From Yoonia maricola (lineage in GTDB: Bacteria; Pseudomonadota; Alphaproteobacteria; Rhodobacterales; Rhodobacteraceae): 64,000 bases of DNA. Shown one piece after another: positions 8,852-23,385 of this stretch. The notes under the pieces were generated by a model, which saw only the letters and a program-made list of their open reading frames with translations, searched no databases and was not told the DNA's origin. Every line of letters starts with the position of its first letter. The stretch's first letter is position 1. Both the position numbers and the translations under genes were made by a program. The DNA is taken from contig NZ_PGTY01000002.1 of NCBI RefSeq assembly GCF_002797915.1, positions 1 through 64,000 of the forward strand. Direction: 5' to 3'.

Positions 8852-9266
8852 GTTCCGTCGTTAGAGTTCCAAGCCAACCAAGATCAAGGCAACTGATTTC
8901 ACGTAACAGCAACTGAAGACGGCAATATCTTGAGCTGCGACACCAGACAATCATTGGGTTCCATACCGATACAGACATTCTACGCTGCATCGCCGCATTT
9001 CCGTCGTCACATAAACTTGCTCAGCATATTATCGCTTGGATCGCGGCGACAATCGCCGACAAACACCGTGGTCCAGTGATGGCTCTTGTCTCCGTCGAGC
9101 ATCACAAAAAGGTGAACCAAGCAGGTCCGAAAGAGTGCCGTAAGGTCAACGCCAATGCGTTCAACAAGCACGAAAACAAGACAGATCAGCCCATCACGAT
9201 GGACTGATCGAACGTTATCGCGCTTGCGTGGTGCAGCGCGTTCCCAACAGAATGGAGCTTACAAAC
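8852..9266. other. Intergenic region between divergent genes
   Basis: About 415 bases between the efflux operon (minus) and the small outer-membrane-type protein (plus). No coding frame is credible. It contains a 6-bp GC hairpin at 9044-9058 and the larger inverted repeat at 9184-9209. No regulator gene for the pump is adjacent, which is unusual for RND operons. Confidence 0.5.
9184..9209. promoter_or_regulatory. Inverted repeat upstream of the small outer-membrane protein
   Basis: GATCAGCCCATC (9184-9195) and GATGGACTGATC (9198-9209) form 12-base arms with one mismatch and a two-base centre, about 58 bases before the start of the plus-strand gene. The short centre suits a dimeric repressor site better than a terminator. 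No cognate regulator is identified. Confidence 0.3.
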
Positions 9267-9902
9267 ATGCAATATAAAGCAGTCTTACAAGTATTTGCCG
9301 TCACGAGCACATTCATCGTGCCGCAAATCGGCACCGCCGATACGTTGACATTCGGTACTGATCTTGAATTGGAAGTAGACAACGACAACAGCACCATTAC
9401 CGCCACACCCTATCTGGAATATGCGACAAACTTCGGCGTTTACGTCGGTGCTGACGTATCGAATGAGGACAGCGATACCGATGACTACTCTGTCAGTGCC
9501 TACATCGGGTATGGTGGGGAAGTCGGGCTTTTCACCTACGATCTCTATTACGGTCACTACTACCTGAACGAAACCGGTGATGATGGCGAAGAGGTCATCG
9601 CGACACTTGGCTACCCGGTCTTTGGTGGTCTGACCATGGAAACCGCGCTGATTTCTGACCTTGATGACACAGAAAGCCTGGAGCAAAGTTTTTACTATGC
9701 GCTGCCTGCGGCCTATGAAATCTCGGGTGCTTATGAATTCGTGGATGGCGAGCATACAGATGATTGGGATTTGGGTGTTTCAAAAACCCTCACCGAGGAA
9801 ATAGCGCTCGACCTGCGCTATTACGATTCTGAGGATGACAGCCCATCTGTCGCCATGACGGTTTCTTATGCAACCGATGTCGCCGGGCTATTCGGCGGGT
9901 AA
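9267..9902 (+). CDS. Small acidic outer-membrane beta-barrel-like protein
   Basis: The start at 9267 follows GGAG by nine bases and gives a clean signal peptide (QYKAVLQVFAVTSTFIVP, cleavage near GTA-DT). The mature part (~187 residues) is rich in Asp, Glu and Tyr and alternates short polar/aromatic strands such as YLEYATNFGVYVGADVS and VGLFTYDLYYGHYYL, as expected for an 8-10 strand beta-barrel. It resembles the family annotated as bacterial protein of unknown function with a Gcw_chp/TorF-type barrel. Function is unknown. It stands alone, converging on the dioxygenase gene with a 30-base gap. Confidence 0.6.
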   Translation: MQYKAVLQVFAVTSTFIVPQIGTADTLTFGTDLELEVDNDNSTITATPYLEYATNFGVYVGADVSNEDSDTDDYSVSAYIGYGGEVGLFTYDLYYGHYYLNETGDDGEEVIATLGYPVFGGLTMETALISDLDDTESLEQSFYYALPAAYEISGAYEFVDGEHTDDWDLGVSKTLTEEIALDLRYYDSEDDSPSVAMTVSYATDVAGLFGG

Positions 9903-9915
9903 GATCAGCCCATGA

Positions 9916-9950
9916 GGTGCTTGCTGCGGCGCTACTCCTTGGCAAGCACC
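9916..9950. terminator. Possible shared terminator between convergent genes
   Basis: GGTGCTTGC (9916-9924) and GCAAGCACC (9942-9950) pair around a 17-base loop and span the stop codon of the minus-strand dioxygenase. Neither side has a real T run, so this is only a weak candidate for a bidirectional terminator. Confidence 0.25.
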
Positions 9951-10798
9951 ACATTAAACGCAACCGCTAGAAACGGTGCATCAACCTTCCCTGATAGGGC
10001 CATACCGTCGGGGAAGTCACCCGCATCTTTTTCCCGGTATGTCATGACCAGATCGTCACGCACACCAAAGACCGTATCCTGATCAAGGTAAGGGTCATCA
10101 CTGGGAAAGACTTCGGTGACCAAAGTGCGATAGCCTGGCGCTTTCACGATGAAATGCAGATGCGACGGCCGCCATGGGTGGCGCCCACAGGCCCGCAAAA
10201 TATCACCGACAGGCCCGTCGGTTGGCACGGTATATTCGACTGGCTTGACCGTGGTGAACGCGTACCGCCCATCATCCCCGACGGTCATCAAACCGTGGAA
10301 CGAAAACGTATCCTGTGCCTCGTCCTGACTGGCGTAAAGCCCATTTGGCGCCGTTTGCCAAATGTCGAGTTCGGCCCCCGCGATGGGATTGCCGTCCGTA
10401 TCCTGGATGATGCCTTCGGCCAACAAAACAGGCCCGCCAAAATCGCGCTTCATATCGCCGCCCACAGCCAAGGGTGGGGCGCCCGATACGTGGAACGGAC
10501 CCAAAACCGAAGATGATGTCGCCTCTGGGCGCGAGTGCAGCATGTCGACCAGCGATGACAGGCCCAGCACATCAGATGCCAAGACAAATTCGTGCCGGTC
10601 TTCCGTCTCAATTGCGGCGCAGCCTTCAAGAAAGGCGATACCTTGCCGCCATTCATCGTGGGTCAGGTTCGTCTCGCGCGCGAAATCATGCATGTGCTGC
10701 ACAAGTGCACCAAGAATTTCACGGGTCCGCGGGGGCATGTCATCAGCCATGTAGCCTCTGAATACATCCGTGATGTTGTCTTTGGTCACGTTACGCAT
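9932..10798 (-). CDS. Intradiol ring-cleavage dioxygenase, hydroxyquinol 1,2-dioxygenase type
   Basis: Fe(III) enzyme that inserts O2 between two adjacent ring hydroxyls of a catechol-like substrate. The 288-residue protein has the helical N-terminal dimerisation domain and then the catalytic barrel. Iron ligands are Tyr155 (NGLYASQ), Tyr189 (VEYTVP), His213 and His215 (RPSHLHF). The stretch TDGPVGDILRACGRHPWRPSHLHF is typical of the hydroxyquinol (1,2,4-trihydroxybenzene) branch. It is last gene of a long minus-strand operon, 12 bases after the TRAP large permease. No iron-type maleylacetate reductase, the usual partner, is present, so the true substrate may differ from hydroxyquinol. Confidence 0.85.
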   Translation of the reverse strand: MRNVTKDNITDVFRGYMADDMPPRTREILGALVQHMHDFARETNLTHDEWRQGIAFLEGCAAIETEDRHEFVLASDVLGLSSLVDMLHSRPEATSSSVLGPFHVSGAPPLAVGGDMKRDFGGPVLLAEGIIQDTDGNPIAGAELDIWQTAPNGLYASQDEAQDTFSFHGLMTVGDDGRYAFTTVKPVEYTVPTDGPVGDILRACGRHPWRPSHLHFIVKAPGYRTLVTEVFPSDDPYLDQDTVFGVRDDLVMTYREKDAGDFPDGMALSGKVDAPFLAVAFNVVLAKE

Positions 10799-10810
10799 GA
10801 GCAGGTTTCC

Positions 10811-12115
10811 TTAAAGCAAAGCAAGACTGAGGATCGGGAATTCGATCAGGATGAAGAGGACGATCAACATCACAAAGGCGAAGGGCAGCGCGCCCATGAA
10901 CACATCCTTTAGCGATATGCGATCGTCATCGAGCGTCGATTTGATAACAAAACACGATATGCCCAAGGGCGGGGTCAAAAGGCCGATTTCAGCCCCGACC
11001 ACAGTGATGATCCCAAACCAGATCAGCGACATATCAAGCGCTTCGACAAGCGGCAGGAACAGCGGCACAACGATCAGGATGATTGATGCTGTGTCAAGGA
11101 TGGTGCCCAGAAAGATCATCAAGAGCACGTAAAGCAACATGATCGTCCAGAAAGTTGCAGAATTGCCCGCAAGCATATCCTGTAACTGGTTGGGCAAGCC
11201 TGCAAGGCCAAGCATCCGACTGTAGATCGAGGCTGCTGTAATCAGGAAAAGGATCGCGGCGGTGATGTGCCCGGTCTCAAGAAGCGCATCCCAAAAGCCT
11301 TTCAGCGTCATCGACCGGCGGGCCAACGCGATGATCAGCGCCACAAGAGATCCTGTTGCCCCGGCCTCTACCGCCGTCATCCAGCCGGTATAGATACCAC
11401 CCAAGACGATGGTAATCAGGCCAATCGTGGGAAGCGTCTTTGACGCGATCTCACGCCCGGTCATCCATTCGGTGTCTTCCACCACACGACCACCAACGAA
11501 GTCGGGGGTAAAGCGCCCCATGAACCAGATGGCCCCGACGTAGGCGATGGCCAGCATGATACCGGGGATCACCCCGGCCAGAAACATATCACCGACCGAT
11601 TGTTCTGCCACAAAACTATAGATAATCAACATCGCAGATGGCGGGATGATCATTCCCAGCACCGACGACCCGGCGACCACGCCCACGGCAAAGCGTGGAT
11701 TATAGTCCTGATTGATCATTTGCGGCACAGAGACTTTGGTAAAGACCGATGCAGATGCAATAGACGATCCCGTCACAGCGGCGAAAACCGCATTGGCCCC
11801 AACGGTCGCCATGCCGATGCCGCCTTTGACCTTGCGAAAGCGCATGGTCATAACTTCGTATATATCGCGGCCCAGTCCCGCTTTGGACACGATTAATCCC
11901 ATGAAGGTAAATAACGGGATCGTCGCAAAGCTATAGACCATAGCGCTATCTTGCACAGCGATCTTCAACAGGTTCAGCGATAGTGTGAAGTTGTCGCGCA
12001 TCAACCAAATGGACACCAGCGACACCATACCTAAGGCGATAGGGATATAGACGCCGGAGTAAATCAAAAAGACGATCGCGATGACCGAGATGATGCCGAT
12101 CTCAATGGGGGTCAT
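10811..12115 (-). CDS. TRAP transporter large permease, DctM family
   Basis: The 434-residue membrane subunit that carries out Na+-coupled uptake of an organic acid together with the small permease and binding protein just upstream. About 12 hydrophobic segments are visible, with family signatures GSSIASASVFTKV and PPSAMLIIYSF in the first half and LLTPPLGISCFVIK in the second. ATGA overlap with dctQ shows translational coupling. Because it lies inside an operon with ring-cleavage enzymes, an aromatic acid or a short diacid is the likely cargo (inference). Confidence 0.9.
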   Translation of the reverse strand: MTPIEIGIISVIAIVFLIYSGVYIPIALGMVSLVSIWLMRDNFTLSLNLLKIAVQDSAMVYSFATIPLFTFMGLIVSKAGLGRDIYEVMTMRFRKVKGGIGMATVGANAVFAAVTGSSIASASVFTKVSVPQMINQDYNPRFAVGVVAGSSVLGMIIPPSAMLIIYSFVAEQSVGDMFLAGVIPGIMLAIAYVGAIWFMGRFTPDFVGGRVVEDTEWMTGREIASKTLPTIGLITIVLGGIYTGWMTAVEAGATGSLVALIIALARRSMTLKGFWDALLETGHITAAILFLITAASIYSRMLGLAGLPNQLQDMLAGNSATFWTIMLLYVLLMIFLGTILDTASIILIVVPLFLPLVEALDMSLIWFGIITVVGAEIGLLTPPLGISCFVIKSTLDDDRISLKDVFMGALPFAFVMLIVLFILIEFPILSLALL

Positions 12116-12678
12116 GGTTTGGTCCCGCCTGCGTCTATGTCGTCATGTTCTGGCACGCGGATCAGCTGAGGCCGGTCTTGTGCGGTGATCACTTTGAGAA
12201 CAAAAATCAAACAGGCCAACGCGCTACCACTGGCGATCACCAGCTTGATGGGCCACCACGGAACGGTGAAAAGGCCGGGAATGCCGAAGAAATCCTGCGT
12301 GTCCCACATCTTCAGGAATTCGGGGAACATAATATAGGCAATGAGCCCCATGAATATCGCCGATATCGCGTTGATGATGCGGCGCAAGTTGGCCGTCAGA
12401 CCCGGCTTGCGGCTGTGCAGCAAGTTCAGGAAACCATCCGAACGTGTCAGCCGGTCAACGCGCACTACATCAGCAAGCTGTAGAAAAACAATGAACACGA
12501 CCGACAGCTGGACGATTTCATAGGTGCCTCTCAGCGGCGCGTTGAACACGCTGCGCGCGACCACATCCACGTTAAGAATGACCACCAACATCAGCACAGT
12601 CAGTGTGCCCGCGACGTTGGCGGCAATGGCAAGGGAGTGGGCGACCCGCGTCAGGCCAACCAGTGCAGAATTTAGCAT
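12112..12678 (-). CDS. TRAP transporter small permease, DctQ family
   Basis: 188 residues with four hydrophobic segments, the normal DctQ architecture. The second carries FIVFLQLADVVRVDRLTRSDG, typical of the family's conserved loop. It partners with DctM. It overlaps dctM by four bases and follows the binding-protein gene by about 30. Confidence 0.85.
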   Translation of the reverse strand: MLNSALVGLTRVAHSLAIAANVAGTLTVLMLVVILNVDVVARSVFNAPLRGTYEIVQLSVVFIVFLQLADVVRVDRLTRSDGFLNLLHSRKPGLTANLRRIINAISAIFMGLIAYIMFPEFLKMWDTQDFFGIPGLFTVPWWPIKLVIASGSALACLIFVLKVITAQDRPQLIRVPEHDDIDAGGTKP

Positions 12679-12707
12679 AATGATGGCCTTCTGTCGGGTC
12701 GTCCGCG

Positions 12708-13781
12708 TTACTCTTGCGTCCAGTTACGGACGCCGGTGAAACCGGCAGCTTCCAATTTAGCCAGATAGGCTTCCAGCATTTCGGTGCCGGGTTCCCCATT
12801 GTCATTCAGTGTGGTGGCCCATTCCTGCGCAATATTTGGCATAGCACCTGCCCAAGCTGCACGCTCTTCTTCGGACAGATCAACGATTGTCCCGCCTGCG
12901 GCCACGTAGGCAGCTTCTGCTTCGGCTGCGCGATCCATCGCAATCCCTGCAAGATGGTCACGATAGTCAATCGATACGGCCTGCAGCACTTCTTTGACTT
13001 CATCAGGCAGATTATCCCAATAATCCTGATTGACGGTCACGGTCTTGGAATTCACAGCCCCCAGATCAGCGCGCAGCATATAGGGTGCCACTTCGGAGAT
13101 TTTAAAGGTTGCCGCTGCTTCAGGCCACAACATGCCCGCATCGGCCAGACCGGTCTGCATCATATTGTAAAAATCAGTCAGACCACCGCGCACACCAGCC
13201 GCGTCCTGAATACCTTCGAGGTAACGCAGGTTCATACCGGCACCAGCGACCTTCAGACCTTCCAGATCAGCAATGCCACTCACTTCGTTGGTCAAGAACA
13301 CCTGATAGCTGTTCAGCACAACGCCAGTTGCAAGATAGACTTGGTTCTGGGCTGCGAATTCGTTTTGCATCGCAGGGAATTCACGTGCGATTTCGTCAAC
13401 CGCCTGTGCCACAGCGCGCGCGTCTGAAGATACGAATGGCGTGACAGCGGCAAGCCCCTGACTTGGTAGTTTGGATGAGTGGAAGATCGTCGTAACAATG
13501 CCGATGTCACCCAATCCCAACTCGATCCCTTCCAGAACGCCACGGGGTTTCACGATGGAACCGCCGTAGTTTTCCTGCCAATCCATCACGTAATTGCCGG
13601 TTTCAGCCAGGCGACGGTCAACTTCGGGAATAAAGAAGTCGGTGAACTCTTTCACCCATAGTGCACGGTCAGGATAGCCGTCGATGACAACCGCCGAAAT
13701 CGTCTCTTGCGCCGCGACAGGGATCGCCGTCACCGTTGCAACGGCGGCACCCATCAGTGTGCGTTTTGTCCAGTTCATCAT
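12708..13781 (-). CDS. TRAP transporter solute-binding protein, DctP family
   Basis: Periplasmic receptor of the DctPQM system. I use the ATG at 13781 (357 residues) because GGGAGG precedes it by eight bases and a signal peptide follows (MMNWTKRTLMGAAVATVTAIPVAAQ split across the cleavage site). The longer frame to 13844 overlaps the OsmC stop and has no ribosome site. The DctP fold is supported by WQENYGGSIVKPRGVLEG, LKVAGAGMNLRYLEGIQDAAG and the C-terminal helices. The central Arg that contacts a carboxylate in most DctP proteins probably lies in the NLRYLEG region. Ligand unknown. Confidence 0.88.
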   Translation of the reverse strand: MMNWTKRTLMGAAVATVTAIPVAAQETISAVVIDGYPDRALWVKEFTDFFIPEVDRRLAETGNYVMDWQENYGGSIVKPRGVLEGIELGLGDIGIVTTIFHSSKLPSQGLAAVTPFVSSDARAVAQAVDEIAREFPAMQNEFAAQNQVYLATGVVLNSYQVFLTNEVSGIADLEGLKVAGAGMNLRYLEGIQDAAGVRGGLTDFYNMMQTGLADAGMLWPEAAATFKISEVAPYMLRADLGAVNSKTVTVNQDYWDNLPDEVKEVLQAVSIDYRDHLAGIAMDRAAEAEAAYVAAGGTIVDLSEEERAAWAGAMPNIAQEWATTLNDNGEPGTEMLEAYLAKLEAAGFTGVRNWTQE

Positions 13782-13822
13782 GTGTTTTTCCTCCCAGAAA
13801 AGTGGGCGCTTTGCCCATTTGA

Positions 13823-14284
13823 TTACGCGTTTGTCTTCACCCACTTCACGGTCAGGTCGGTTCCTGCCGCTTCAAAAAGTTTGGCAATCGCGCAGTATTT
13901 TGCAGTTTCCACCCCGACCAGATCCAACTCCTCTTGGTTGGCCGGGGTGATGCAGTTCACGGTGAGTGTGACTTGTGGGAATGGTACGTCGATCTCTTCC
14001 TCCATGAGAACGCCGCGCCGGTCGAACTTGCAACTTGCATCAATTGAAATTTCACCGAGATCGATACCAAGACGGGCCGCATTTTTATGCCCGATGACAT
14101 TGGTACAGGCGATCAGCGCCGTCATTGCCGTCTCGGTAGGTGTGGGGCCAAGGTTTGTGCCGCCCCGCTCGGTGGGTTCATCGATCACAACATGCAAGTC
14201 ACGGATAGGGATTTCCGTGCGCGCATGTGTCGGGCATTGCGCAGTTGCGCGATAAGTGACGACGGTTTTTGGTTTCACAGCCAT
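13823..14284 (-). CDS. OsmC/Ohr family peroxide-reducing protein
   Basis: 153-residue OsmC-like protein. The two reactive cysteines are Cys60 (TALIACTNVIG) and Cys131 (AKYCAIAKLF), which reduce organic peroxides in characterised members. Its place between a nitroreductase and a TRAP binding protein in a catabolic operon suggests it deals with peroxides or reactive intermediates of ring cleavage; this is inference. It starts 10 bases after the nitroreductase stop. Confidence 0.85.
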   Translation of the reverse strand: MAVKPKTVVTYRATAQCPTHARTEIPIRDLHVVIDEPTERGGTNLGPTPTETAMTALIACTNVIGHKNAARLGIDLGEISIDASCKFDRRGVLMEEEIDVPFPQVTLTVNCITPANQEELDLVGVETAKYCAIAKLFEAAGTDLTVKWVKTNA

Positions 14285-14294
14285 CGATCTATCC

Positions 14295-14960
14295 CTAAAT
14301 CACGCTGCACACTTGGTCGAAATCAAACCGTGGCAGCTTTTGAAACAGGGCCGTTTCATCCGCATAGCCGATATTGCAAAGGAAGTTCGATTTCAGGCTG
14401 GTGCCCGCAAAAAACTCTTCATCCACAATCGCGTTCGAAAACCCCGACATTGCGCCGACATCCAGTCCAACGGCGCGGGCGGCGATCATGAAATAGGCAC
14501 CCTGCAGCGTCGCATTGCGATAGGCTGTATCTTCGCAATAGGCCGCATTGCCATCAAACAAATGGCGGCGGTCCTCATGCGGGAAAAGAAACGGCAGTTC
14601 GTGCCAGAAATTCATGTCCTGTGCGATGATCGCCGTAACAGGCGCGCCCATCATCTTGGGCACGTTCTGCGGTTTGAGCGACTTTGCCAGACGTTCCTTG
14701 CCCTCAGGCGATTTGACGAAGACAAATCGCGCAGGCAGCGTATTCATTGATGTCGGACCGTTGATGGTAATCTCGTAGATTTCCTCTAACAGGCCATCGG
14801 GTATCGGCTTGTCTGTCCATGCGTAATGCGACCGTGCATCGCGTAGGATCAGATCAATTGCATCATCGGAAAGACGCGTGATGCGCTGACGCAGATCCCG
14901 GTGATCCGCCTGCGCTTTGGCCCGCAATGCATCCAGTTCTGATCCGGTAGGCGCATTCAT
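14295..14960 (-). CDS. Nitroreductase family protein, RutE/HadB-like reductase
   Basis: 221-residue FMN-dependent reductase of the nitroreductase fold. The N-terminal RSHYAWTDKPIPDGLLEEIYEITINGPTSMN contains the arginine and Ser/Asn flavin contacts, and GLDVGAMSGF is the conserved loop. The closest named subgroup I recognise is the RutE/HadB type (malonic semialdehyde reductase in pyrimidine degradation). That is notable because malonate genes lie nearby, but none of the other rut genes is here. It overlaps the upstream hydrolase gene by four bases (ATGA). Confidence 0.8.
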   Translation of the reverse strand: MNAPTGSELDALRAKAQADHRDLRQRITRLSDDAIDLILRDARSHYAWTDKPIPDGLLEEIYEITINGPTSMNTLPARFVFVKSPEGKERLAKSLKPQNVPKMMGAPVTAIIAQDMNFWHELPFLFPHEDRRHLFDGNAAYCEDTAYRNATLQGAYFMIAARAVGLDVGAMSGFSNAIVDEEFFAGTSLKSNFLCNIGYADETALFQKLPRFDFDQVCSVI

Positions 14961-15841
14961 TCCGCGGCCGCCACGGTAGCTTGGTCTTTTTCATCGACAA
15001 TCGGGTTCGAACAAATGCCGATCCCTTCAATTTCGATATCCACAACCTCGCCGGGAACCAGCCAACGTGGGTTGGGTTTCTTGGCGTGACCCACACCCGG
15101 CGGCGTGCCCATTGCAATCAGATCGCCCGGTTCGAGTGTGGTATATTCAGAGATCGTGGCAATCGTCTGCGCCACTGACCAGATCATGTTGCCAGTGTTG
15201 GAGGACTGCAAAATCTCTGTTCCGACGCGGCTTTCAATCTTTAAGCCCGCAGCACCTTCTGGAACCTCATCAGGTGTGACGACATAGGGGCCGATGGCAC
15301 CTGTGTTGTCAAAGTTCTTACCCGGCGTCCACTGATGCGTCTTGCGTTGGTAGTCGCGGACAGATCCGTCGTTGAACACGGTATAGCCAAAGACGTGGTT
15401 CAAGGCGTCAGCTTCGGAAATATGCCGCCCGCCCTTGCCGATGATGAACATTAACTCGGCCTCATAGTCCAGCTTGTCTGAACAGGATGGGCGCACCAAC
15501 GGGGCGCCAGCCGCCATGATCGAATTCTTGCCGCGCATGAAAAGCGCGGGATAGTCAGGGATATCATACCCGCCTTCTTTGATGTGGTCGGTATAGTTCA
15601 GACCAAGACATATGATCGTCCCCGGCTCAGCCACGGGCAGCGCTGGTGTAATCGAAGAGACGGCGACGCGTGGCGCGCCCTGCATCTTGGCCGCCAGTGA
15701 TTCTGCGAGCATCGGATCAGCAATCAGAGCCATCAAATCTGGACCAACTGCAGCGTCAAGGGCCGTAAGATTAACGGCTTCAGCACCTTCGACAGCAAAA
15801 ACTGCGGTCCCGTTTGATGTATCACCGACGAGATATTTCAT
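14957..15841 (-). CDS. Fumarylacetoacetate hydrolase family protein (acylpyruvase-like)
   Basis: 294 residues. Metal ligands of the FAH fold are visible: Glu127 and Glu129 (DYEAELMFIIG) and Asp158 (VFNDGSVRDYQ); His86 lies in GLNYTDHIKEGG. Family members split C-C bonds in 3-acylpyruvates or decarboxylate oxaloacetate-like acids. The sequence after the core (FDNTGAIGPYVVTPDEVP) matches the hydrolase/isomerase group used in aromatic degradation. It is first gene of the operon that ends with the dioxygenase; AAGGA precedes the ATG. The divergent promoter region with operator site 1 lies directly upstream. Confidence 0.87.
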   Translation of the reverse strand: MKYLVGDTSNGTAVFAVEGAEAVNLTALDAAVGPDLMALIADPMLAESLAAKMQGAPRVAVSSITPALPVAEPGTIICLGLNYTDHIKEGGYDIPDYPALFMRGKNSIMAAGAPLVRPSCSDKLDYEAELMFIIGKGGRHISEADALNHVFGYTVFNDGSVRDYQRKTHQWTPGKNFDNTGAIGPYVVTPDEVPEGAAGLKIESRVGTEILQSSNTGNMIWSVAQTIATISEYTTLEPGDLIAMGTPPGVGHAKKPNPRWLVPGEVVDIEIEGIGICSNPIVDEKDQATVAAAE

Positions 15842-15852
15842 GCTTTCAATCC

Positions 15853-15882
15853 TTGTAAGTTTGAGTCTTTTCTGCCTACAAT
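15853..15882 (+). promoter_or_regulatory. Candidate sigma-70 promoter for YciI-gntR
   Basis: TTGTAA (15853-15858), an 18-base spacer and TACAAT (15877-15882) would start transcription near 15889, just before operator site 1. A regulator bound there could block initiation or escape. The match is by eye and only moderate. Confidence 0.3.
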
Positions 15883-15899
15883 ATCATCATAAGTCAATA

Positions 15900-15911
15900 A
15901 ATATCGATTTT
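15900..15911. promoter_or_regulatory. Operator site 1 (AATATCGATTTT) in the divergent promoter region
   Basis: It shares 11 of 12 bases with the perfect palindrome at 17023-17034 and is centred on ATCGAT in an AT-rich block. It lies about 60 bases upstream of the minus-strand hydrolase operon and 20 bases upstream of the YciI start, so one site could control both directions. Likely bound by the GntR protein of 16330-16992 (inference). Confidence 0.55.
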
Positions 15912-15931
15912 TTAGTCGAAGGAGAAACGCG

Positions 15932-16318
15932 ATGGTCGCTTGGGCTGACTACAAGGCAGAGGCGCAATCGCGCGGCGCGCTGGCACTGGAACTTTATGTT
16001 GCCGTGTCCACTCCGGTCAAAGAACCGCAAGACGTCAAAGCGGCCCTGCCTGATCATTTGGCCTATCAGGCGGAACTTGAGCGGGCAGGTTCCTTGGCAT
16101 TTGCTGGGCCCATGTCAGATGACAGCGGTGATCATATGCAGGGAACCGGGATGATCATCTATCGCGCGGAAAGCCTTGCAGACGCGCGGGCGCTTGCGGA
16201 TGCCGATCCGATGCATGTAGCTGGTGCACGAAGCTATGTCATGAAACGTTGGTTAATCAACGAAGGATCTTTTAACGTGGCGGTTGGTCTATCTACGAAA
16301 CACGTCACCCTGACCTAG
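15932..16318 (+). CDS. YciI-like (YCII domain) protein
   Basis: 128-residue protein with a YCII ferredoxin-like fold. It shows the LPDHLAYQAELERAGSLAFAGPM segment, in which the His is the conserved, possibly catalytic residue, and GTGMIIYRAESLADARALADADPM. Relatives include small hydrolases and dehydrochlorinase-like enzymes in aromatic degradation. GGAGA sits six bases before the ATG. It is co-transcribed with the GntR regulator 11 bases downstream and diverges from the ring-cleavage operon. Specific role unknown; muconolactone-type chemistry is possible but unproven. A different YCII protein is at 47284-47556. Confidence 0.8.
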   Translation: MVAWADYKAEAQSRGALALELYVAVSTPVKEPQDVKAALPDHLAYQAELERAGSLAFAGPMSDDSGDHMQGTGMIIYRAESLADARALADADPMHVAGARSYVMKRWLINEGSFNVAVGLSTKHVTLT

Positions 16319-16329
16319 GAGATCACTGC

Positions 16330-16992
16330 ATGAATATGCTGGATGGCACGAGCAGCACGGAAACATCTGCAACGCGGGCAGCCTATCTGTCATTGCGAGA
16401 CATGATCCTTGTGGGAAAGCTTCCGGCAGGCGAGAAACTGAAGATCGAACAGTTGCGCAAATTGCTGGATACCGGTGCCTCTCCCGTCCGAGAGGCGCTG
16501 AGCCTGCTGACGTCGGACATGCTGGTTGAACGTATTGACCAACGGGGTTTTCGTGCCGCCCCTGCGAGCCTAGCCAATTTTGAGGAAATCCTGACCCTGC
16601 GCTGCACGCTAGAGGATATGGCCCTGCGTCGGTCGATCGCGCATGCCACGGCCGCATGGGAAGAGCGCCTTGTCTTGGCGCACCACCGCATGAAACGGGT
16701 TGCAGGAACGGACGCCTTTGAAGAGGCACACAAGTTGTTCCACATGACACTGCTCAGCAACGCGCAATCGCCTATGCTGGAAAGGTATTGCAGCCAGCTT
16801 TATGACCTGAATATCCGCTATCGCTATCTGGCGGCAGGCGGGGCGCGCTACCAAAGTCGGGATATTGCGGCCGAACATGTCAGCATTTTGGATGCCGCCG
16901 TGCAGCGTGACGCTGATACGGCGTCTATCGCTCTTCTGCATCACTACCGCCTAACTGGTGAGTATCTGTCTACCCAGCTCGCTGATCTTTAG
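16330..16992 (+). CDS. GntR-family regulator, FCD (FadR) subfamily
   Basis: 220 residues: winged helix (residues ~15-80, recognition part LDTGASPVREALSLLTSDMLV, wing QRGFRAAP) followed by an all-helical FCD ligand domain with likely metal ligands in HKLFHMTLL, AAEHVSILDAA and LLHHYRLTGEYL. The gene sits between the ring-cleavage operon and malonyl-CoA decarboxylase/synthetase. In rhizobia, MatR, also a GntR protein, controls matABC, so the same type of control is expected here. Three copies of an ATCGAT-centred palindrome in this block are its likely targets. The ligand could be malonate or a pathway intermediate. Confidence 0.88.
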   Translation: MNMLDGTSSTETSATRAAYLSLRDMILVGKLPAGEKLKIEQLRKLLDTGASPVREALSLLTSDMLVERIDQRGFRAAPASLANFEEILTLRCTLEDMALRRSIAHATAAWEERLVLAHHRMKRVAGTDAFEEAHKLFHMTLLSNAQSPMLERYCSQLYDLNIRYRYLAAGGARYQSRDIAAEHVSILDAAVQRDADTASIALLHHYRLTGEYLSTQLADL

Positions 16993-17022
16993 TTTTGCCG
17001 ATATAAAATAATCATTTGTAAA

Positions 17023-17034
17023 AATATCGATATT
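17023..17034. promoter_or_regulatory. Operator site 2 (AATATCGATATT), perfect palindrome before matA
   Basis: A perfect 12-bp palindrome in the 77-base gap between the GntR stop and the decarboxylase start. The gap is AT-rich, unlike the surrounding coding DNA. A partial copy (CCGATATAAA) occurs 26 bases upstream. This should give the two malonate genes their own regulated promoter. Confidence 0.6.
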
Positions 17035-17069
17035 ATGAAAGGATTTTCGCAAGTAGCGGAGTAAGCCCT

Positions 17070-18368
17070 GTGCAGCGCAATCGATTCCTTGGCGATATCC
17101 TATCGACCCTGCTTGATCGCAGTGGCGTGCTGCGCAGTACCAACGATACCCGTGATATATTCGCGCTGTGTCACGCGCTCCTGTCCGCAGAAGGCACAGT
17201 GTCTGGGCATACGCTCGCCGCGACCGTTCTGGATCGCTATCAATCACTGACGCTTGATGAAAAACGCGCGTTTTTTAAGTTTCTGAACGAAGAATTGGAT
17301 ATCAACCCAACTGCGCTGATGGACCTCGCACAGATTTATGCGGACACGCCGACGCCAGAGGCGTTCAAGTCCCTGTCTCAGGCAGCCGAGCCGCGACGCC
17401 AGGAACTCCTGCGGCGCCTCAATCAGCCAATCGGTGCCACAGCCGCCATCGTTGCGATGCGTGTTGATTTGCTAAACATCATGAAGACGGCACCTGAACT
17501 GGCGCGCACAGATTATGATTTCGTGCACCTGCTGCGCAGTTGGTTCAACCGCGGCTTTCTGGTGCTCAAAGCGATCGATTGGGACACACCAGCGCGCATT
17601 CTTGACAAGATCGTCGCCTATGAGGCCGTGCATCAGATTGATGACTGGGATGACCTGCGCAGGCGTTTGTATCCGCAAGACCGACATTGCTTTGCGTTCT
17701 TTCACCCAGCCATGCCGGATGAACCGCTGATTTTTGTTGAAGTCGCGCTGACGAAAACCATCCCGACCAAAATCACGGATGTCTTATCAGAACAAAGGCC
17801 CCCATTAGCAGTTGAAGATGCAAAGGTTGGCGTCTTTTATTCGATTTCCAACTGCCAAAAAGGGCTTGCCGGGATCAGCTTTGGCAATTTGCTGATCAAA
17901 CAGGTAGTGGCTGAACTATCACAAATGTTTCCGCACCTTGACGAATTTGTCACCCTGTCCCCGATACCCGGTCTGAACCGCTGGTTGGCGACACAAACAG
18001 ACGATCCTGATCACGGTCATATCGCCACCGCGATCCTGGATCAAAGCGCTGCACCCAAAGATATCCGCGCTATGGCCGCCCGGTATTTGCTGACGGCCAA
18101 ACGCGATGATGGGATGCCCGTTGATCCGGTCGCGCGGTTTCACCTTGGCAATGGCGCGGCGGTCTTCGACGTTCACGCTGACGCCGACCCATCTGAGAAC
18201 GGTCTCAAGCAATCAAGCGGTGCGATGGTGAACTATCATTACGATCTCTCTCAAACCCAGCGGCACCACGAGGATTTCGCCTTGAAGTCCATCGTAACCG
18301 CTGCAAAATCCGCGCAAAGCCTATCCACGGCTGCACTCTCGCGAAAACCCAAGGAAACGTCATCGTGA
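17070..18368 (+). CDS. matA: Malonyl-CoA decarboxylase
   Basis: Converts malonyl-CoA to acetyl-CoA and CO2. The 432-residue protein has the helical N-terminal domain and a GNAT-like catalytic domain. The active residues known from the family are Ser297 (TLSPIPGLNRW) and His358 (ARFHLGNGA). GTG start with GGAG eight bases upstream. The next gene, malonyl-CoA synthetase, overlaps by four bases, so the pair makes acetyl-CoA from free malonate. The nearby candidate operator suggests induction together with the ring-cleavage operon. Confidence 0.92.
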   Translation: MQRNRFLGDILSTLLDRSGVLRSTNDTRDIFALCHALLSAEGTVSGHTLAATVLDRYQSLTLDEKRAFFKFLNEELDINPTALMDLAQIYADTPTPEAFKSLSQAAEPRRQELLRRLNQPIGATAAIVAMRVDLLNIMKTAPELARTDYDFVHLLRSWFNRGFLVLKAIDWDTPARILDKIVAYEAVHQIDDWDDLRRRLYPQDRHCFAFFHPAMPDEPLIFVEVALTKTIPTKITDVLSEQRPPLAVEDAKVGVFYSISNCQKGLAGISFGNLLIKQVVAELSQMFPHLDEFVTLSPIPGLNRWLATQTDDPDHGHIATAILDQSAAPKDIRAMAARYLLTAKRDDGMPVDPVARFHLGNGAAVFDVHADADPSENGLKQSSGAMVNYHYDLSQTQRHHEDFALKSIVTAAKSAQSLSTAALSRKPKETSS

Positions 18369-19858
18369 CGAATACACTTTATGACGCGCTCTTCGCGCGG
18401 CATGCCCAGAACAGCGCAATCTTTATCACTCAGGACGACGGCACCAACGTGACCTATGCCGCCTTTGTAGCGCGCATTGCACAACTGGCACATGTTTTGA
18501 CAGGCGCAGGTGTCAGGCCGGGGGACCGGGTCGTGGTGCAGGCACCCAAGCTCACCGATACCATTGCCCTTTACGGTGCAACCCTTCAGGTGGGGGCTGT
18601 CTATCTGCCCTTGAACACGGCCTATACACAAAGTGAGTTGGATTATTTCATCACTGACGCCGCACCGGCCCTTGTCGTGTGCGATGCGCGCGTTGAAGCC
18701 GAGATTGCCGGTATTGCTGGCCAAACCCCCGTTTTAACGCTCGCCACGGATGGGACCGGATCATTATCGGTGCAGGCACATGACCGGCCCACGACCTTTC
18801 GAACTGTGGTACGCGGCCCTGATGATCTGGCCGCCTTGCTTTATACATCGGGCACGACCGGGCGATCAAAGGGGGCAATGCTGAGCCACAAGAACCTGCT
18901 TTCAAATGCGCAAACGCTGACGGATCTGTGGCAAATCACCGATGCTGACCGTCTGATCCATGCCCTGCCAATTTTTCATACCCATGGATTGTTCGTCGCG
19001 CTGAACACCGCGTTTTTGGCCGGTGCGCAGGTGCGGTTGATGGCCGCGTTTGATGTCGACAGTATCCTGCAAGAGCTGCCATCATCCACGCTGCTGATGG
19101 GCGTGCCCACATTTTACACCCGTCTGCTGAATGATACGCGCTTCACCGGTGATCTGGTCAAGAATATGCGGTTGTTTGTGTCAGGCTCTGCCCCGCTTTT
19201 GGCTGAGACGCATACAGCATTTGAGGCGCGGACCGGCCACCGTATCCTTGAACGCTATGGGATGACCGAAACCAATATGATCACGTCCAACCCGTATGAT
19301 GGCGAACGTGTGGCTGGCACTGTTGGATATCCACTCCCCGGCACGCAAGTACGGATCACCGATAACGGTGCTCCTGTTGCCGCAGGAGAAGTGGGCATGA
19401 TCGAAGTGCGCGGCGACAATGTGTTCCAAGGCTATTGGAACATGCCCGAAAAGACGGCGGAAGAACTGCGCGCGGACGGTTTCTTCATTACAGGCGATCT
19501 GGGTATACAAACCGAAGATGGACGCATTTCCATCGTTGGACGTCAGAAGGACCTTATTATTTCGGGTGGCTACAATATCTATCCAAAAGAAATCGAAGAT
19601 GTGATCAACGATATCGACGGCGTGCTGGAAAGTGCTGTCTTTGGTATCCCCCATCCTGACTTCGGGGAATCTGTCCTGGCTTCAGTGGTGCTAGATAATG
19701 ATGACGTCACCGCAGATAGCATTGCGTCGCAGGTTGCACCGCTGCTTGCGCGGTTCAAACACCCGCGTCGCTATATTTTAACAGATGCGCTGCCGCGCAA
19801 TGCGATGGGTAAGGTGCAGAAAAACGTCCTGCGCGCCGCGCATAGCGCAAAGGCTTGA
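18365..19858 (+). CDS. matB: Malonyl-CoA synthetase (malonate-CoA ligase)
   Basis: Adenylate-forming enzyme that makes malonyl-CoA from malonate, ATP and CoA. 497 residues, with the AMP-binding core motif LLYTSGTTGRSKGAM (near residue 160), the YGMTETNM motif, GDLG hinge region and the catalytic lysine in NAMGKVQK near the C-terminus. The compact size and RYGMTE context fit MatB. GTG start inside the decarboxylase stop region. It converges with the cupin gene, one base apart, with no room for a terminator. Confidence 0.9.
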   Translation: MTNTLYDALFARHAQNSAIFITQDDGTNVTYAAFVARIAQLAHVLTGAGVRPGDRVVVQAPKLTDTIALYGATLQVGAVYLPLNTAYTQSELDYFITDAAPALVVCDARVEAEIAGIAGQTPVLTLATDGTGSLSVQAHDRPTTFRTVVRGPDDLAALLYTSGTTGRSKGAMLSHKNLLSNAQTLTDLWQITDADRLIHALPIFHTHGLFVALNTAFLAGAQVRLMAAFDVDSILQELPSSTLLMGVPTFYTRLLNDTRFTGDLVKNMRLFVSGSAPLLAETHTAFEARTGHRILERYGMTETNMITSNPYDGERVAGTVGYPLPGTQVRITDNGAPVAAGEVGMIEVRGDNVFQGYWNMPEKTAEELRADGFFITGDLGIQTEDGRISIVGRQKDLIISGGYNIYPKEIEDVINDIDGVLESAVFGIPHPDFGESVLASVVLDNDDVTADSIASQVAPLLARFKHPRRYILTDALPRNAMGKVQKNVLRAAHSAKA

Positions 19859-19859
19859 C

Positions 19860-20441
19860 CTAGCGGTCGGGAATACCCTTGCCACCACCTGACTGTGTGA
19901 CGCCATCGATCAAGACGAACATCATCGTGCAAGGCTCTGTGCCGCGGTTTGCCCAAGCGTGGTTGGTGCCGCGTTGCACAACGACATCCCCAGCTTTTAA
20001 CAGCACATCGTCTTCTTCGTTATCCATCAGCATCCATATTTCGCCATTCATAACGATGCCATAGTCAACGCTGTCCGTGCGGTGCATCCACGGGTGCCGC
20101 CCGCCTTGCACAACATTTGCGCCCGCGCCCATTTCGGCAAAGGCGGCGGCCCCGTCTTCGCTGGACAACCGGGCCATCACCTCTGGGTCTTCGGGCATGA
20201 ATTCCACACAGCGAAAGACAGACCCATTGGTCGGAGGATGCAGGATAAAATCCCCGGTGCAGGTCTCAGTCGGGCCATCATATTCGGCGGGTGTTTGGTC
20301 GGTGAGCCAAAAGTTGGTCAGACGCACACCGGGACGGTTGGGCCGTTCAAGGATTTGACTGGCGATTTGGTCACTTTCGATGATGGCTACGCCTTTGTCG
20401 TCATGTCCGGTAACAACGCGGCGGTATTGCTTGTGGGTCAT
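19860..20441 (-). CDS. Cupin-domain protein
   Basis: 193 residues with one RmlC-type cupin barrel. Conserved parts are GGRHPWMHRTDSVDYGIVMNGE (first motif with His residues) and LKAGDVVVQRGTNHAWANRG (second motif). The metal set looks like His, His/Asp, Glu and His, so it could be a metal enzyme or a sensor. Relatives are common beside aromatic and polyketide-like catabolic genes, but no reaction is established to my knowledge. Four-base overlap with the TRAP permease upstream places it in the TAXI operon. Confidence 0.75.
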   Translation of the reverse strand: MTHKQYRRVVTGHDDKGVAIIESDQIASQILERPNRPGVRLTNFWLTDQTPAEYDGPTETCTGDFILHPPTNGSVFRCVEFMPEDPEVMARLSSEDGAAAFAEMGAGANVVQGGRHPWMHRTDSVDYGIVMNGEIWMLMDNEEDDVLLKAGDVVVQRGTNHAWANRGTEPCTMMFVLIDGVTQSGGGKGIPDR

Positions 20442-22330
20442 GGTGTTGCCTCATCTTGGGTTGTTGGTTGGGTGCGGCTGACAAAGATGACGCCTGCAAA
20501 AAGGATCAGACCGATCACAGCACTGATCAAGCCTTGGAATAACAGGCAGAGGCCTGCGATCGCCATGATCATCCGTAAAAGTGGTGACAGGGATGCGTTC
20601 AAACATCCAATGATTGCCACAGCAATCGCAAAGGTGCCGATGGCTGCTGTGAGGACTGCGGCCGCATTCTCAAGCAGTGTGCCGGCCATTAACAGGCCAG
20701 GACCATAAACAAACGCAAAGGGTAAAACGAATGAGGTCGCGGCATAGGCCGCAGCCGTCCAGCCGACCTTGTTCACATTCGCCCCCGCGATACCACCCGC
20801 GACGTAAGACGCCAGCGCCACTGGTGGGGTGATGGTCGAAATGCAACCGTAATAGAACACAAAGAAATGCGCCGTCAGAACCGGGACACCCAATTTCACC
20901 AGCGCAGGTGCCACGACCGTCGCCAAGATCAGATAGGCCGCCGTCGTGGGTAGCCCCATACCCAGAATAATCGATGTCACCATCGTAAAGAACAGTGCCA
21001 GAAACAAATACCCGCCCGACGCCACATCAATCAGCGTGGCAATCTTGGACCCCAGACCGGTGACCCCAAGGACGCCCGCGATAATACCTGCCGCAGCACA
21101 AGCCGCCGAGATCGTGACAACAGAACGCGCACCCTCGGACACGCTGGTCGCAAGTTTGGCGAAAAAGGCCGCGTCCACTTTGCGGTTCCAGACGATATCC
21201 CCGGCAATCAGCACTCCCATCGCCCAAAGCGACGCCATGAAAGGTGAGTATCCCAACAGCATCATGGCGATCAGGGTGCCAAACGCCGCGATGAACGGGC
21301 CGCCGTCCAACAGTACTTTCCAGAGTGGCGCGTCACTGCCCGACAGATCAGCCGTATTTGGCATGATGCCCGACTTGACCGCTTGCAAATGCACAACCAT
21401 GAAAGCCGAGCTGAAGAACAACAGCGCCGGAACAATCGCCGCCAGCATTATGGCTGTGTAGGGAACTCCCACAATCTCGGCCATGATAAAGGCTGCAGCC
21501 CCCATGACAGGCGGCATAATCTGCCCACCCGTAGAGGCCACAGCCTCAATCGCGGCGGCCTGATGTGGCTGATACCCTTCGCGTTTCATGATCGGGATCG
21601 TCACGGTGCCCGTGACCGCCACATTGCCCGCGGCAGAGCCGCTGACCATACCAATCAATGTGGAAAACAGGACCGCCGACTTTGCAGACGCCGCCCGCAA
21701 GCCGCGCGTGCAGCGGTTGGATAGTTCAAAAAAGAAATCGCCCGCACCAAAGTTGGACAGAAGCGCGCCAAAAATCGTGAAAACGATAATATAGGTTGCC
21801 GCCACGCCAACAGGGATCCCATAGATGCCTTGGGTATCAGTTGTCAGCACCAAGACGATCCGCTGCAACGTGGCCCCGCGCCCTTCCAAGACACCGGGCA
21901 GGTAGGGGGCGATGAAAGGGTAAAGGAAGAAGACAAAGGTGATGCCGGCGAGGATCCAACCGATGCCGCGCCGTGCCGCTTCAAACACCACGGCTAGCAA
22001 GACAATACCGGCAAGGTAATCCATATCGGTGGTGATGCCGCCGCTAAAGGCAATCGCCTTCCAGCGTGTCAAAAGATGTGCACTTGCCGCGACAGTTGCC
22101 ACAACCAGCAGGCCTGACAGCACCGCATTCAACCGCGTGCCCGCCAGTTTTTCACTGGTCGGTTTGATGACAAACAGCAAGGATAAGGCAAGCATCAAAT
22201 GCGTCACACGCATCGGCATGGTCGAAATTGCGATAACGCCTGATACGACCATCAGATGATAAGCGCCAAGGGCGAGACCCGCCAAAAAGACCGCATTTTT
22301 TAGGGTAAGTTTACCCATCAGTCCCGACAT
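20438..22330 (-). CDS. TRAP transporter fused permease (4TM/12TM, TAXI type)
   Basis: About 630 residues with some 16-18 hydrophobic segments: a DctQ-like first part joined to a DctM-like second part, the form that works with TAXI binding proteins. Motifs include GMVSGSAAGNVAVTGTVTIPIMKREGY, GGQIMPPVMGAAAFIMAE and ILGMGLPTTAAYLI. I start at 22330 (MSGLMGKLTL); 22318 is also possible. The frame open to 22366 runs into a terminator and is unlikely to be the start. It follows the binding-protein gene and is separated from it by that terminator. Confidence 0.9.
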   Translation of the reverse strand: MSGLMGKLTLKNAVFLAGLALGAYHLMVVSGVIAISTMPMRVTHLMLALSLLFVIKPTSEKLAGTRLNAVLSGLLVVATVAASAHLLTRWKAIAFSGGITTDMDYLAGIVLLAVVFEAARRGIGWILAGITFVFFLYPFIAPYLPGVLEGRGATLQRIVLVLTTDTQGIYGIPVGVAATYIIVFTIFGALLSNFGAGDFFFELSNRCTRGLRAASAKSAVLFSTLIGMVSGSAAGNVAVTGTVTIPIMKREGYQPHQAAAIEAVASTGGQIMPPVMGAAAFIMAEIVGVPYTAIMLAAIVPALLFFSSAFMVVHLQAVKSGIMPNTADLSGSDAPLWKVLLDGGPFIAAFGTLIAMMLLGYSPFMASLWAMGVLIAGDIVWNRKVDAAFFAKLATSVSEGARSVVTISAACAAAGIIAGVLGVTGLGSKIATLIDVASGGYLFLALFFTMVTSIILGMGLPTTAAYLILATVVAPALVKLGVPVLTAHFFVFYYGCISTITPPVALASYVAGGIAGANVNKVGWTAAAYAATSFVLPFAFVYGPGLLMAGTLLENAAAVLTAAIGTFAIAVAIIGCLNASLSPLLRMIMAIAGLCLLFQGLISAVIGLILFAGVIFVSRTQPTTQDEATP

Positions 22331-22350
22331 CCCGGCCCACCCTTCAGACG

Positions 22351-22374
22351 AAAAAGGGGCCCGCAATGGGCCCC
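22351..22374 (-). terminator. Strong hairpin-T5 terminator between TAXI gene and permease
   Basis: On the minus strand GGGGCCC, a five-base loop and GGGCCCC are followed directly by TTTTT. It lies 10 bases after the TAXI stop codon and before the permease start. Such an internal terminator would make more binding protein than permease from one promoter. Confidence 0.75.
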
Positions 22375-22383
22375 AAATCTTGT

Positions 22384-23316
22384 TTAGTTCGCGTCGAAAT
22401 AAGCCTGCGCACCGGCGTGCAGCGGAATAGCCAATTGCGTAGACATCGCAGGATCAATCTGGCGCGCATTTGCGTTTTCGGCCTGAAGCTCTGGCAGATT
22501 GTCAAAGATCGCACGGGTCACAGCCTCGACCGTGGCGGCATCCAGTGAATTTGGGGCAACAAGCATGTTGTTCACACCAATCACAGTCCCACCCTCGGCT
22601 GTGCCATAGACATCTGCTGCAATTTCAACCGGGACATAGGCCCCATTCGCGTCCAACGCCGCATCAAGCATGCCTTCGGAGAATGAGATGAACCGCAAAT
22701 CAGCACCGGCAGTCGCCTGCATCACCGCACCTGCCGGGTAACCGGACAAGGCCAGCGCAGCATCGACGGTGCCGTCAGTCAACTGACTGAAACCATCTGA
22801 ATAGGACACAAAGCTTGGTGTGATGTCTTCAATGTCCATATCATGCAGCGGCATCAGAAAGTTGATAAAACCCAAGGTCCCGCCACCCGCCGGACCGACG
22901 GCCACGCGTTTGCCTGCAAGGTCTTCGAATGTCTGAATGTCGCTGTCTGCCAGCACCATCATGTGCAACACGGACGGGTGCAGTGCCGCGACAGCGCCAA
23001 TATCAATCGGACCAGCAGCCGTGTAAGGCCCCTTACCGGCCACGGCCAGAACGGCAAGGTTGTTGTTTGTAATCGCAATCTCAACCTCGCCAGTGGCGAT
23101 CAGGTTGGGGTTCTGAACGGATCCACCTGTCACAATCGGCACCATTGAGATGTCGTTGCCCGCATGCGCATTCACAACGTTAGAAATGCTCTGTCCCATT
23201 GGGTAAAAGGCGCCGCCAAGCGATGCGGTTCCGATCCGAAGTTCCTCTGCTCCGGCGGTTGCCGCACAAGAGACAAGCGCCATAACGCCGAGCGCGCGTT
23301 TGATTGGGTTTAACAT
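22384..23316 (-). CDS. TAXI-family TRAP solute-binding protein
   Basis: Periplasmic receptor for the fused TRAP permease. The ATG at 23316 (310 residues) has GGGAGGA five to eight bases upstream and starts a signal peptide (LNPIKRALGVMALVSCAATAGA). The family mark ELRIGTASLGGAFYPMGQSIS follows at once, then GGSVQNPNLIATGEVEIAITNN and KRVAVGPAGGGTLG. The raw frame to 23400 would cover the operator and is rejected. Ligands of TAXI proteins include glutamate and other acids; here unknown. Operator site 3 lies about 60 bases upstream. Confidence 0.9.
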   Translation of the reverse strand: MLNPIKRALGVMALVSCAATAGAEELRIGTASLGGAFYPMGQSISNVVNAHAGNDISMVPIVTGGSVQNPNLIATGEVEIAITNNNLAVLAVAGKGPYTAAGPIDIGAVAALHPSVLHMMVLADSDIQTFEDLAGKRVAVGPAGGGTLGFINFLMPLHDMDIEDITPSFVSYSDGFSQLTDGTVDAALALSGYPAGAVMQATAGADLRFISFSEGMLDAALDANGAYVPVEIAADVYGTAEGGTVIGVNNMLVAPNSLDAATVEAVTRAIFDNLPELQAENANARQIDPAMSTQLAIPLHAGAQAYFDAN

Positions 23317-23373
23317 CGATTCCTCCCTCATTTCAGTGGCAAGGATAACGAAGTCAGCCAATAAAGCTATATA

Positions 23374-23385
23374 AAAATCGATATT
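23374..23385. promoter_or_regulatory. Operator site 3 (AAAATCGATATT) upstream of the TAXI operon
   Basis: It matches site 2 at 11 of 12 positions with the same ATCGAT centre. It lies 58 bases upstream of the TAXI start, beside TATATAGC on the minus strand, which may be part of the promoter. It links the second TRAP system and the cupin to the same regulator. Confidence 0.55.

Follow-up and report, generated by a model that had tools for sequence, protein, structure and literature searches.

Why should genes for the activation and decarboxylation of malonate lie beside an aromatic ring-cleavage operon, and are the two sets under common control? The question is raised by a gene block of Yoonia maricola (Rhodobacteraceae; RefSeq assembly GCF_002797915.1) located at positions 9932-23316 of the window, that is, the 64,000-nucleotide stretch of contig NZ_PGTY01000002.1 (positions 1 to 64,000, forward strand) analysed here. 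The block comprises three units. A leftward operon encodes a FAH-family acylpyruvase-like hydrolase (FAH), a nitroreductase-family protein (NTR), an OsmC-like protein, the TRAP uptake system DctP-DctQ-DctM and an intradiol ring-cleavage dioxygenase (IDO), in this order. The rightward unit reads yciI-gntR-matA-matB, and a second leftward operon encodes a TAXI-family binding protein, a TRAP permease and a cupin (TAXI-TRAP-cupin). We propose that a palindromic operator, probably bound by the GntR protein of the block, joins these units into one regulon that serves a catabolic route to pyruvate and malonate, a joint reading to which we assign a probability of roughly 0.75.

A palindrome confined to three gaps

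The earlier note had proposed that one operator motif unites the three units. Its three 12-mers are present as described, the outer two each one base off the palindromic middle copy:

15900..15911, unstranded: operator 1, AATATCGATTTT, in the divergent gap between FAH and YciI
17023..17034, unstranded: operator 2, AATATCGATATT, between gntR and matA
23374..23385, unstranded: operator 3, AAAATCGATATT, upstream of the TAXI TRAP gene

The supposed confinement of the motif to these gaps was borne out, as the exact form AAWATCGATWTT occurs at 3 places in the 3.8-Mb genome, all of them here, and a reversed control at none. With up to two mismatches allowed, the window holds 8 matches against 1.38 expected, a number reached in 0 of 100 shuffles, and with up to one mismatch the whole genome holds 14 places against 2 for the reversed control. 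Under a longest-open-reading-frame (ORF) rule, 10 of the remaining 11 one-mismatch places are labelled as inside an ORF and one as in a gap. The rule is crude: it places even site 3 'inside', misled by a TTG start that lies upstream in the TAXI gene, and of the ten labels two (L002 and L010) are doubtful. The FAH start is 58 bp away from site 1 and the YciI start 20 bp; site 2 lies 35 bp before the matA GTG (17070) and site 3 lies 57 bp before the likely TAXI start, an ATG with a ribosome-binding site at 23316 (the ORF as listed extends to 23400). On the other side of operator 3, about 220 bp past it, begins the gene of a YHYH-domain protein (window:23605-24588), a possible divergent target.

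Conservation of the operator in relatives

Relatives were surveyed in a family sample of 295 genomes (numbered G), in which a GntR set of 41 genomes was defined (40 with the GntR group described below plus one with a 48% identical member). Loci (numbered L) comprised 40 from these genomes (L045-L084, with the 48% member as L084) and, from a titled genome collection, the 80 best among 277 relatives, 9 of which were duplicates. The added loci carry titles such as Rhodobacteraceae, Paracoccaceae, Rhodobacterales or genera including Ruegeria, Yoonia, Shimia and Tateyamaria, and one (L164) comes from a metagenome-assembled genome titled Sphingomonadales. In a 398-genome sample of the phylum, IDO matches of at least 55% identity were confined to the organism's own family (4, counting its own).

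Scanning the genome and its relatives for the 12-mer recovered the exact form at the block here and at the equivalent gaps elsewhere. Of 102 divergent gaps between FAH (or NTR) and YciI, three of which are on contigs apart from gntR, 97 contain the exact AAWATCGATWTT; four of the other five gaps (L060, L083, L222 and L228) are one mismatch away and the fifth (L076) has a weaker form. Counting unique gaps only, 96 of 101 carry the motif, against a mean of 0.035 and a maximum of 1 per 101 in dinucleotide-shuffled sequences. Spacing is conserved as well: of the 86 FAH-type gaps that carry an exact site, 54 place it 58 bp from FAH, and all but one of the 97 gaps have it 12-33 bp ahead of the extrapolated start of yciI. 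On the FAH side a conserved TTGAC begins 2 bp past the site, suggestive of a -35 element. A second conserved block, approximately ATTRTMGGCARAAA, is located at +30 to +44 from the site, downstream of TTGAC on the same side, and may represent a promoter element or an additional half-site.

A position-weight scan covered 250 bp upstream of the genes of 112 loci, with a threshold 6 bits under the weakest training site and a shuffle expectation of 0 to 0.2. Sites were detected before TAXI (7 of 9 loci) and, through one shared gap per locus, before a second TAXI type (TAXI2) and a GST-sulfatase operon (GST2), in 4 of 4 each. They are also found upstream of matA (22/72), gntR (31/112), NTR (13/102), the cupin gene (2/8) and a LeuA-like gene present in some relatives (7/14). 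None was found upstream of DctP (0/102), IDO (0/101), MatB (0/63), OsmC (0/86), the TAXI permease (0/7), the sulfatase (0/6) or a phenol hydroxylase (0/4). This distribution is the pattern of a putative operator at the starts of transcription units. Sites moreover accompany target genes on contigs other than that of gntR (L085, L092, L105 and L245). The suggestion of one motif common to ring-cleavage, mat and TAXI genes thus holds beyond this genome, since the motif is also found before all three in relatives, and by the measure of sequence conservation the predicted regulon is real and conserved.

The GntR regulator and its link to the motif

The single GntR protein of the block combines a GntR winged helix (PF00392, 51.7 bits) with an FCD ligand domain (PF07729, 69.2 bits), both above cutoff. 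Proteins 55-72% identical to it form a group present in 40 of the 295 family genomes, own included, the next best being 48% identical; some match at E≤1e-20 exists in 121 of the 295. The exact site occurs in 38 of the 41 genomes with the GntR ortholog and in 4 of 20 genomes with no match (Fisher p 1.8e-8, uncorrected for kinship), the 20 being drawn from 174 such genomes and scored for at most 10 candidates per genome, so that false absences may be among them. Of the four exceptions, three carry a single copy; G014 carries 8, of which 7 are inside ORFs. Off-target copies, several inside ORFs, also occur in some genomes of the GntR set (7 copies in all in G127 and 6 in G271).

The recognition helix reads G-[AS]-S-P-[IV]-R-E-A in 41 of 41 proteins, with Ala in 39 and Ser in 2, and this Ala/Ser position aligns with an Arg of the solved family member 7xp0. 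On the presumed residue-to-residue match to FadR, the position of the second guanine-reading arginine is occupied by Glu or Asp in 13 and by Ser in 1 of 14 aligned orthologs. In FadR, the presumed counterpart of the recognition-helix arginine reads G (PMC4494728, Table 1). The FadR-subfamily consensus has TKGT/ACMA boxes, which AAWATCGATWTT does not contain, and BioR and NanR are listed as exceptions to it (PMC4494728). An operator without GT/AC boxes fits a GntR protein that has lost its G-reading arginine. Given that the motif tracks the GntR ortholog, the earlier proposal of one FCD-type GntR protein as the shared regulator is supported at the level of predicted binding, and AAWATCGATWTT is very probably the operator of this protein, whose binding is strongly implied.

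The gene block and its proposed function

Gene families were assigned from Pfam and NCBIfam, and the gene list of the earlier note agrees with them:

9932..10798, minus strand: intradiol ring-cleavage dioxygenase, hydroxyquinol type (IDO); PF00775 and PF04444; nearest PDB chains PnpC and hydroxyquinol 1,2-dioxygenase
10811..12115, minus strand: TRAP large permease DctM; PF06808
12112..12678, minus strand: TRAP small permease DctQ; PF04290
12708..13778, minus strand: TRAP binding protein DctP; PF03480
13823..14284, minus strand: OsmC-like protein; PF02566
14295..14960, minus strand: nitroreductase-family protein (NTR); PF00881; NF003768 (malonic semialdehyde reductase) 261.2 bits, cutoff 152
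14957..15841, minus strand: FAH-family acylpyruvase-like hydrolase; PF01557; PDB relatives; best NCBIfam match under cutoff
15932..16318, plus strand: YciI-like protein; PF03795
16330..16992, plus strand: FCD-type GntR regulator; PF00392 and PF07729
17070..18368, plus strand: malonyl-CoA decarboxylase MatA, GTG start at 17070; PF05292 and PF17408
18365..19858, plus strand: malonyl-CoA synthase MatB; NF005702 751.2 bits, cutoff 558
19860..20441, minus strand: cupin protein of the TAXI operon; PF07883
20438..22366, minus strand: TRAP permease of the TAXI system; PF06808
22384..23316, minus strand: TAXI-family TRAP binding protein; TIGR02122 208.5 bits, cutoff 84.35; PF16868

MatB scores above the cutoff of its curated family model (NF005702); MatA scores 309.7 bits against PF05292, and no NCBIfam model matched it. 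A sequence search with DctP returned distant TRAP relatives only, and a search of the plasmid collection gave no near match. Of the 97 loci that do not carry the LeuA-like gene, 60 have both matA and matB nearby, 5 only matB, 3 only matA and 29 neither of the two, uncorrected for contig ends. A matB near gntR with no matA detected occurs in L153, L163, L188, L191 and L205; in the two inspected, L153 and L188, it directly follows gntR.

We hypothesize that a GntR dimer would sit on the palindrome, overlapping or abutting the promoters of yciI-gntR, of the FAH-to-IDO operon, of matAB and of the TAXI operon. Since the site is close to both the yciI start and the FAH-side TTGAC, bound protein would block both promoters, and the likeliest mode of action is that of a repressor released by a pathway metabolite, sign and inducer being putative. 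Substrates would be taken up by the TRAP systems and a hydroxyquinol-type ring cleaved by IDO. The ring-opened 2,4-dioxo acid would then be split by the FAH acylpyruvase into pyruvate and malonate, the malonate being converted to malonyl-CoA by MatB and on to acetyl-CoA by MatA. On chemical reasoning the ring may be 1,2,3,5-tetrahydroxybenzene (6-hydroxyhydroxyquinol), because its intradiol cleavage yields exactly a 2,4-dioxo acid, namely 2,4-dihydroxymuconate, a tautomer of 2,4-dioxoadipate. Malonate from the acylpyruvase step would tie matB and matA to the ring-cleavage operon. We put the chance that pyruvate and malonate are the end products at about even.

Exchange of FAH for a LeuA-like protein

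Within the 41 genomes of the GntR set, a FAH ortholog (E≤1e-80) is present in 25 and the LeuA-like protein in 15 others; none has both and G250 has neither. The LeuA-like copies comprise 13 full ones, one broken (G013) and one contig-edge piece (G158), with 12 full copies being 79-89% identical to the query copy (L075:10299-11510). The broken copy (L067 of G013, approximately 8468-9352) adjoins gntR and has an operator in front. In the 295-genome sample FAH was found in 29 genomes (E≤1e-100; 4 outside the 41) and the LeuA-like protein in 14 (E≤1e-150), with no overlap, and 13 of these 14 belong to the GntR set.

The exception is G014, which combines the LeuA-like protein with an IDO fragment and has neither a GntR match nor an operator near the LeuA-like gene. 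It was considered as a missed regulon and rejected: by the longest-ORF rule 7 of its 8 motif copies are in ORFs, and the 19.9 kb surrounding the LeuA-like gene contain no copy.

The LeuA-like protein matches PF00682 (HMGL-like) with 218.9 bits and stays under the cutoff for all 25 NCBIfam models listed. The 15 LeuA-type loci contain matA in 10 cases and matB in none, uncorrected for contig ends. Four LeuA-type genomes have no MatB at E≤1e-100 (G158, G184, G057 and G049) and retain matA in the cluster, and most of the others have a MatB elsewhere in the genome. Because these four show no MatB yet keep matA, the simplest reading suggested by the sequences is that the LeuA-like enzyme would convert the ring product directly to malonyl-CoA; the four genomes may also have a remoter enzyme that activates malonate. 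As a tentative and rather doubtful extension, the LeuA-like protein may catalyze a CoA-dependent acylpyruvate cleavage, 2,4-dioxoadipate + CoA to pyruvate + malonyl-CoA, replacing FAH and the ATP-dependent MatB within a new aerobic route from tetrahydroxybenzene- or phloroglucinol-type rings to malonyl-CoA, which some relatives would enter by way of a sulfatase and a flavin phenol hydroxylase from units with this operator. To our knowledge the reaction would be without precedent in the LeuA/HMGL family.

On quick trees the exchange forces at least 4 changes on the IDO tree (well-supported branches) and at least 1 on the GntR tree, and it seems to have happened more than once. A sign test on independent pairs had 4 pairs only (median p 0.125); kinship weakens the formal test, and a pure clade effect is possible.

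Accessory units in relatives

Five genomes (L203, L208, L218, L227 and G271/L245) combine a flavin phenol hydroxylase and a sulfatase with a GST and a further TAXI system; in L203 this group was noted at 10667-14581. The L203 hydroxylase is above the cutoff of an MhpA-type subfamily. An operator lies in the GST|TAXI gap of these units, in weak form in L203 and with one mismatch in L208. Sulfatase and hydroxylase have no site directly in front and are inside an operator-led unit (L245) or the gntR unit (L203, L208 and L218). The operator-bearing GST|TAXI gap of G271 (contig C17, L245) is on a contig other than that of gntR, and this unit is a likely regulon member far from the regulator as judged by its operator. 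Hydroxylase and sulfatase are steps to be expected ahead of ring cleavage, and their presence in operator-bearing units of the five relatives is in favour of the proposed route. The hydroxylase could feed ring cleavage, e.g., from phloroglucinol; its ortholog (E≤1e-120) was found only in G271 among the 41 genomes. Brown algae are reported to contain a tetrahydroxybenzene, hydroxyquinol and phloroglucinol (PMC13412289), and an algal source of the substrate is plausible.

Alternative explanations

Several results weigh against our combined proposal of regulon and route. IDO is under the NCBIfam equivalog cutoffs, its best model being chlorocatechol 1,2-dioxygenase. FAH (PF01557, 221.5 bits) has 2,4-didehydro-3-deoxy-L-rhamnonate hydrolase as best NCBIfam model, below cutoff, and HpcE ranks first among its PDB relatives, above acylpyruvases such as FAHD1. 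NTR passes the model for malonic semialdehyde reductase, a step superfluous to the route; it could be a quinone reductase. In 29 of the 97 non-LeuA-type loci neither matA nor matB is present in the stretch examined, some contigs ending early. The position-weight scan found no site upstream of TAXI in L076 and L082, and the promoters that the earlier note placed in all three gaps are putative: when 15842-17069, which covers gaps 1 and 2, was scanned for promoters, it yielded 2 sites where shuffled sequence gave 0.9, nothing clear and no independent support for the proposed mode of repression. The source genome has no phenol hydroxylase ortholog at E≤1e-120.

Some of these points bear on the alternative that survives best, an unlikely one. 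The GntR regulon would be real and serve the classical route from hydroxyquinol to maleylacetate, with FAH and the malonate genes acting on other substrates and sharing the regulator by chance. The top five PDB matches of IDO are PnpC, two hydroxyquinol dioxygenases, a 6-chlorohydroxyquinol dioxygenase and an unnamed intradiol enzyme, PnpC and the hydroxyquinol 1,2-dioxygenases being closest, and the loci with no matAB nearby are in line with this alternative. Hydroxyquinol 1,2-dioxygenase and maleylacetate reductase have also been described as jointly enriched in lacustrine strains of Yoonia, the dioxygenase not being identified there with the gene of this block (PMC10673129). Yoonia is a genus with the cluster (L161, L170, L171 and L174), and the description favours the classical route if its dioxygenase is the same gene as IDO. 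On the other hand, no maleylacetate reductase-type (iron alcohol dehydrogenase) domain was detected among the 20 proteins of block and flank, the rest of the genome being unsearched for one, and FAH or the LeuA-like protein is encoded in 40 of the 41 GntR genomes, a broken and a partial copy included.

It is less probable still that the GntR protein is primarily a sensor of malonate or malonyl-CoA like MatR or MdcY, to whose malonate regulon the ring-cleavage operon was added. The operators in front of matA (22 of 72 upstream regions) would be expected of such a sensor, but it is the FAH|YciI gap that carries the site most constantly, and the 29 loci with no mat genes in the stretch examined speak against it. 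The operator also has no TKGT/ACMA boxes, which are ascribed to the FadR subfamily including MdcY (PMC4494728).

That another regulator binds the palindrome, its link to GntR being a matter of shared gene neighbourhood, is very improbable. GntR binding to the site is a prediction, and 4 of the 20 genomes with no GntR match have the site; however, the site accompanies detached gntR genes and unlinked targets, and the exceptions amount to three single copies and G014 against 38 of 41 GntR genomes. The word can arise by chance, as the several off-target copies in G014, G127 and G271 indicate; chance in AT-rich spacers as the explanation is ruled out by the shuffled gaps and by conservation.

Comparison with known systems

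A literature search, with most subscription papers beyond its reach, found no description of the regulon, the operator or the route, and we appear to be dealing with an undescribed regulon of the Roseobacter group with a sharply defined operator. If the route is true, it explains the malonate genes beside a ring-cleavage operon and points to the use of polyhydroxylated phenols, possibly brown-algal, that ends in malonate and not in 3-oxoadipate. The operator can serve as a search handle, having already connected unlinked genes for uptake, a sulfatase and a hydroxylase with the pathway, while the FAH/LeuA-like exchange makes a possible new enzyme activity directly testable.

With the FadR-subfamily (FCD) GntR regulators the system shares the GntR and FCD domains and a palindromic AT-rich site in a divergent gap by regulator and catabolic operon (PMC4494728). 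It differs in a site centred on ATCGAT with no GT...AC boxes and in the Ala/Ser in place of the recognition arginine. Rhizobial MatR-matABC, compared by description only, likewise has a GntR regulator beside matA and matB, whereas here the ring-cleavage genes are the most constant target; according to the earlier note, the site reported for MatR is a different sequence.

In the 2,4,6-trichlorophenol clusters tcpRXABCYD and had, the dioxygenase TcpC, which cleaves 6-chlorohydroxyquinol, is clustered with the nitroreductase-like TcpB (PMC3975901). This combination of a hydroxyquinol-type dioxygenase with a nitroreductase-like gene is shared, and it is the nearest precedent for the cleavage of a 6-substituted hydroxyquinol. 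These clusters end in the maleylacetate reductase TcpD (PMC3975901), in whose place FAH and MatAB, or the LeuA-like protein and MatA, are found here. FAH itself resembles the FAH-family acylpyruvases and 2,4-diketo-3-deoxyrhamnonate hydrolases in family, closest NCBIfam profile and PDB relatives, and differs in scoring below the equivalog cutoff, in the higher rank of HpcE and in its predicted malonate product. In comparison with the 2-isopropylmalate/homocitrate synthases (LeuA/NifV), the LeuA-like protein keeps the TLRDGEQ, HTHND and NGLGER stretches of a homocitrate synthase; it departs from them in scoring below the cutoffs, in its location in a ring-cleavage cluster and in replacing FAH and MatB. 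Overall, the parts are of known kinds, while the operator type is probably non-canonical for an FCD-type GntR protein and the lower pathway probably new.

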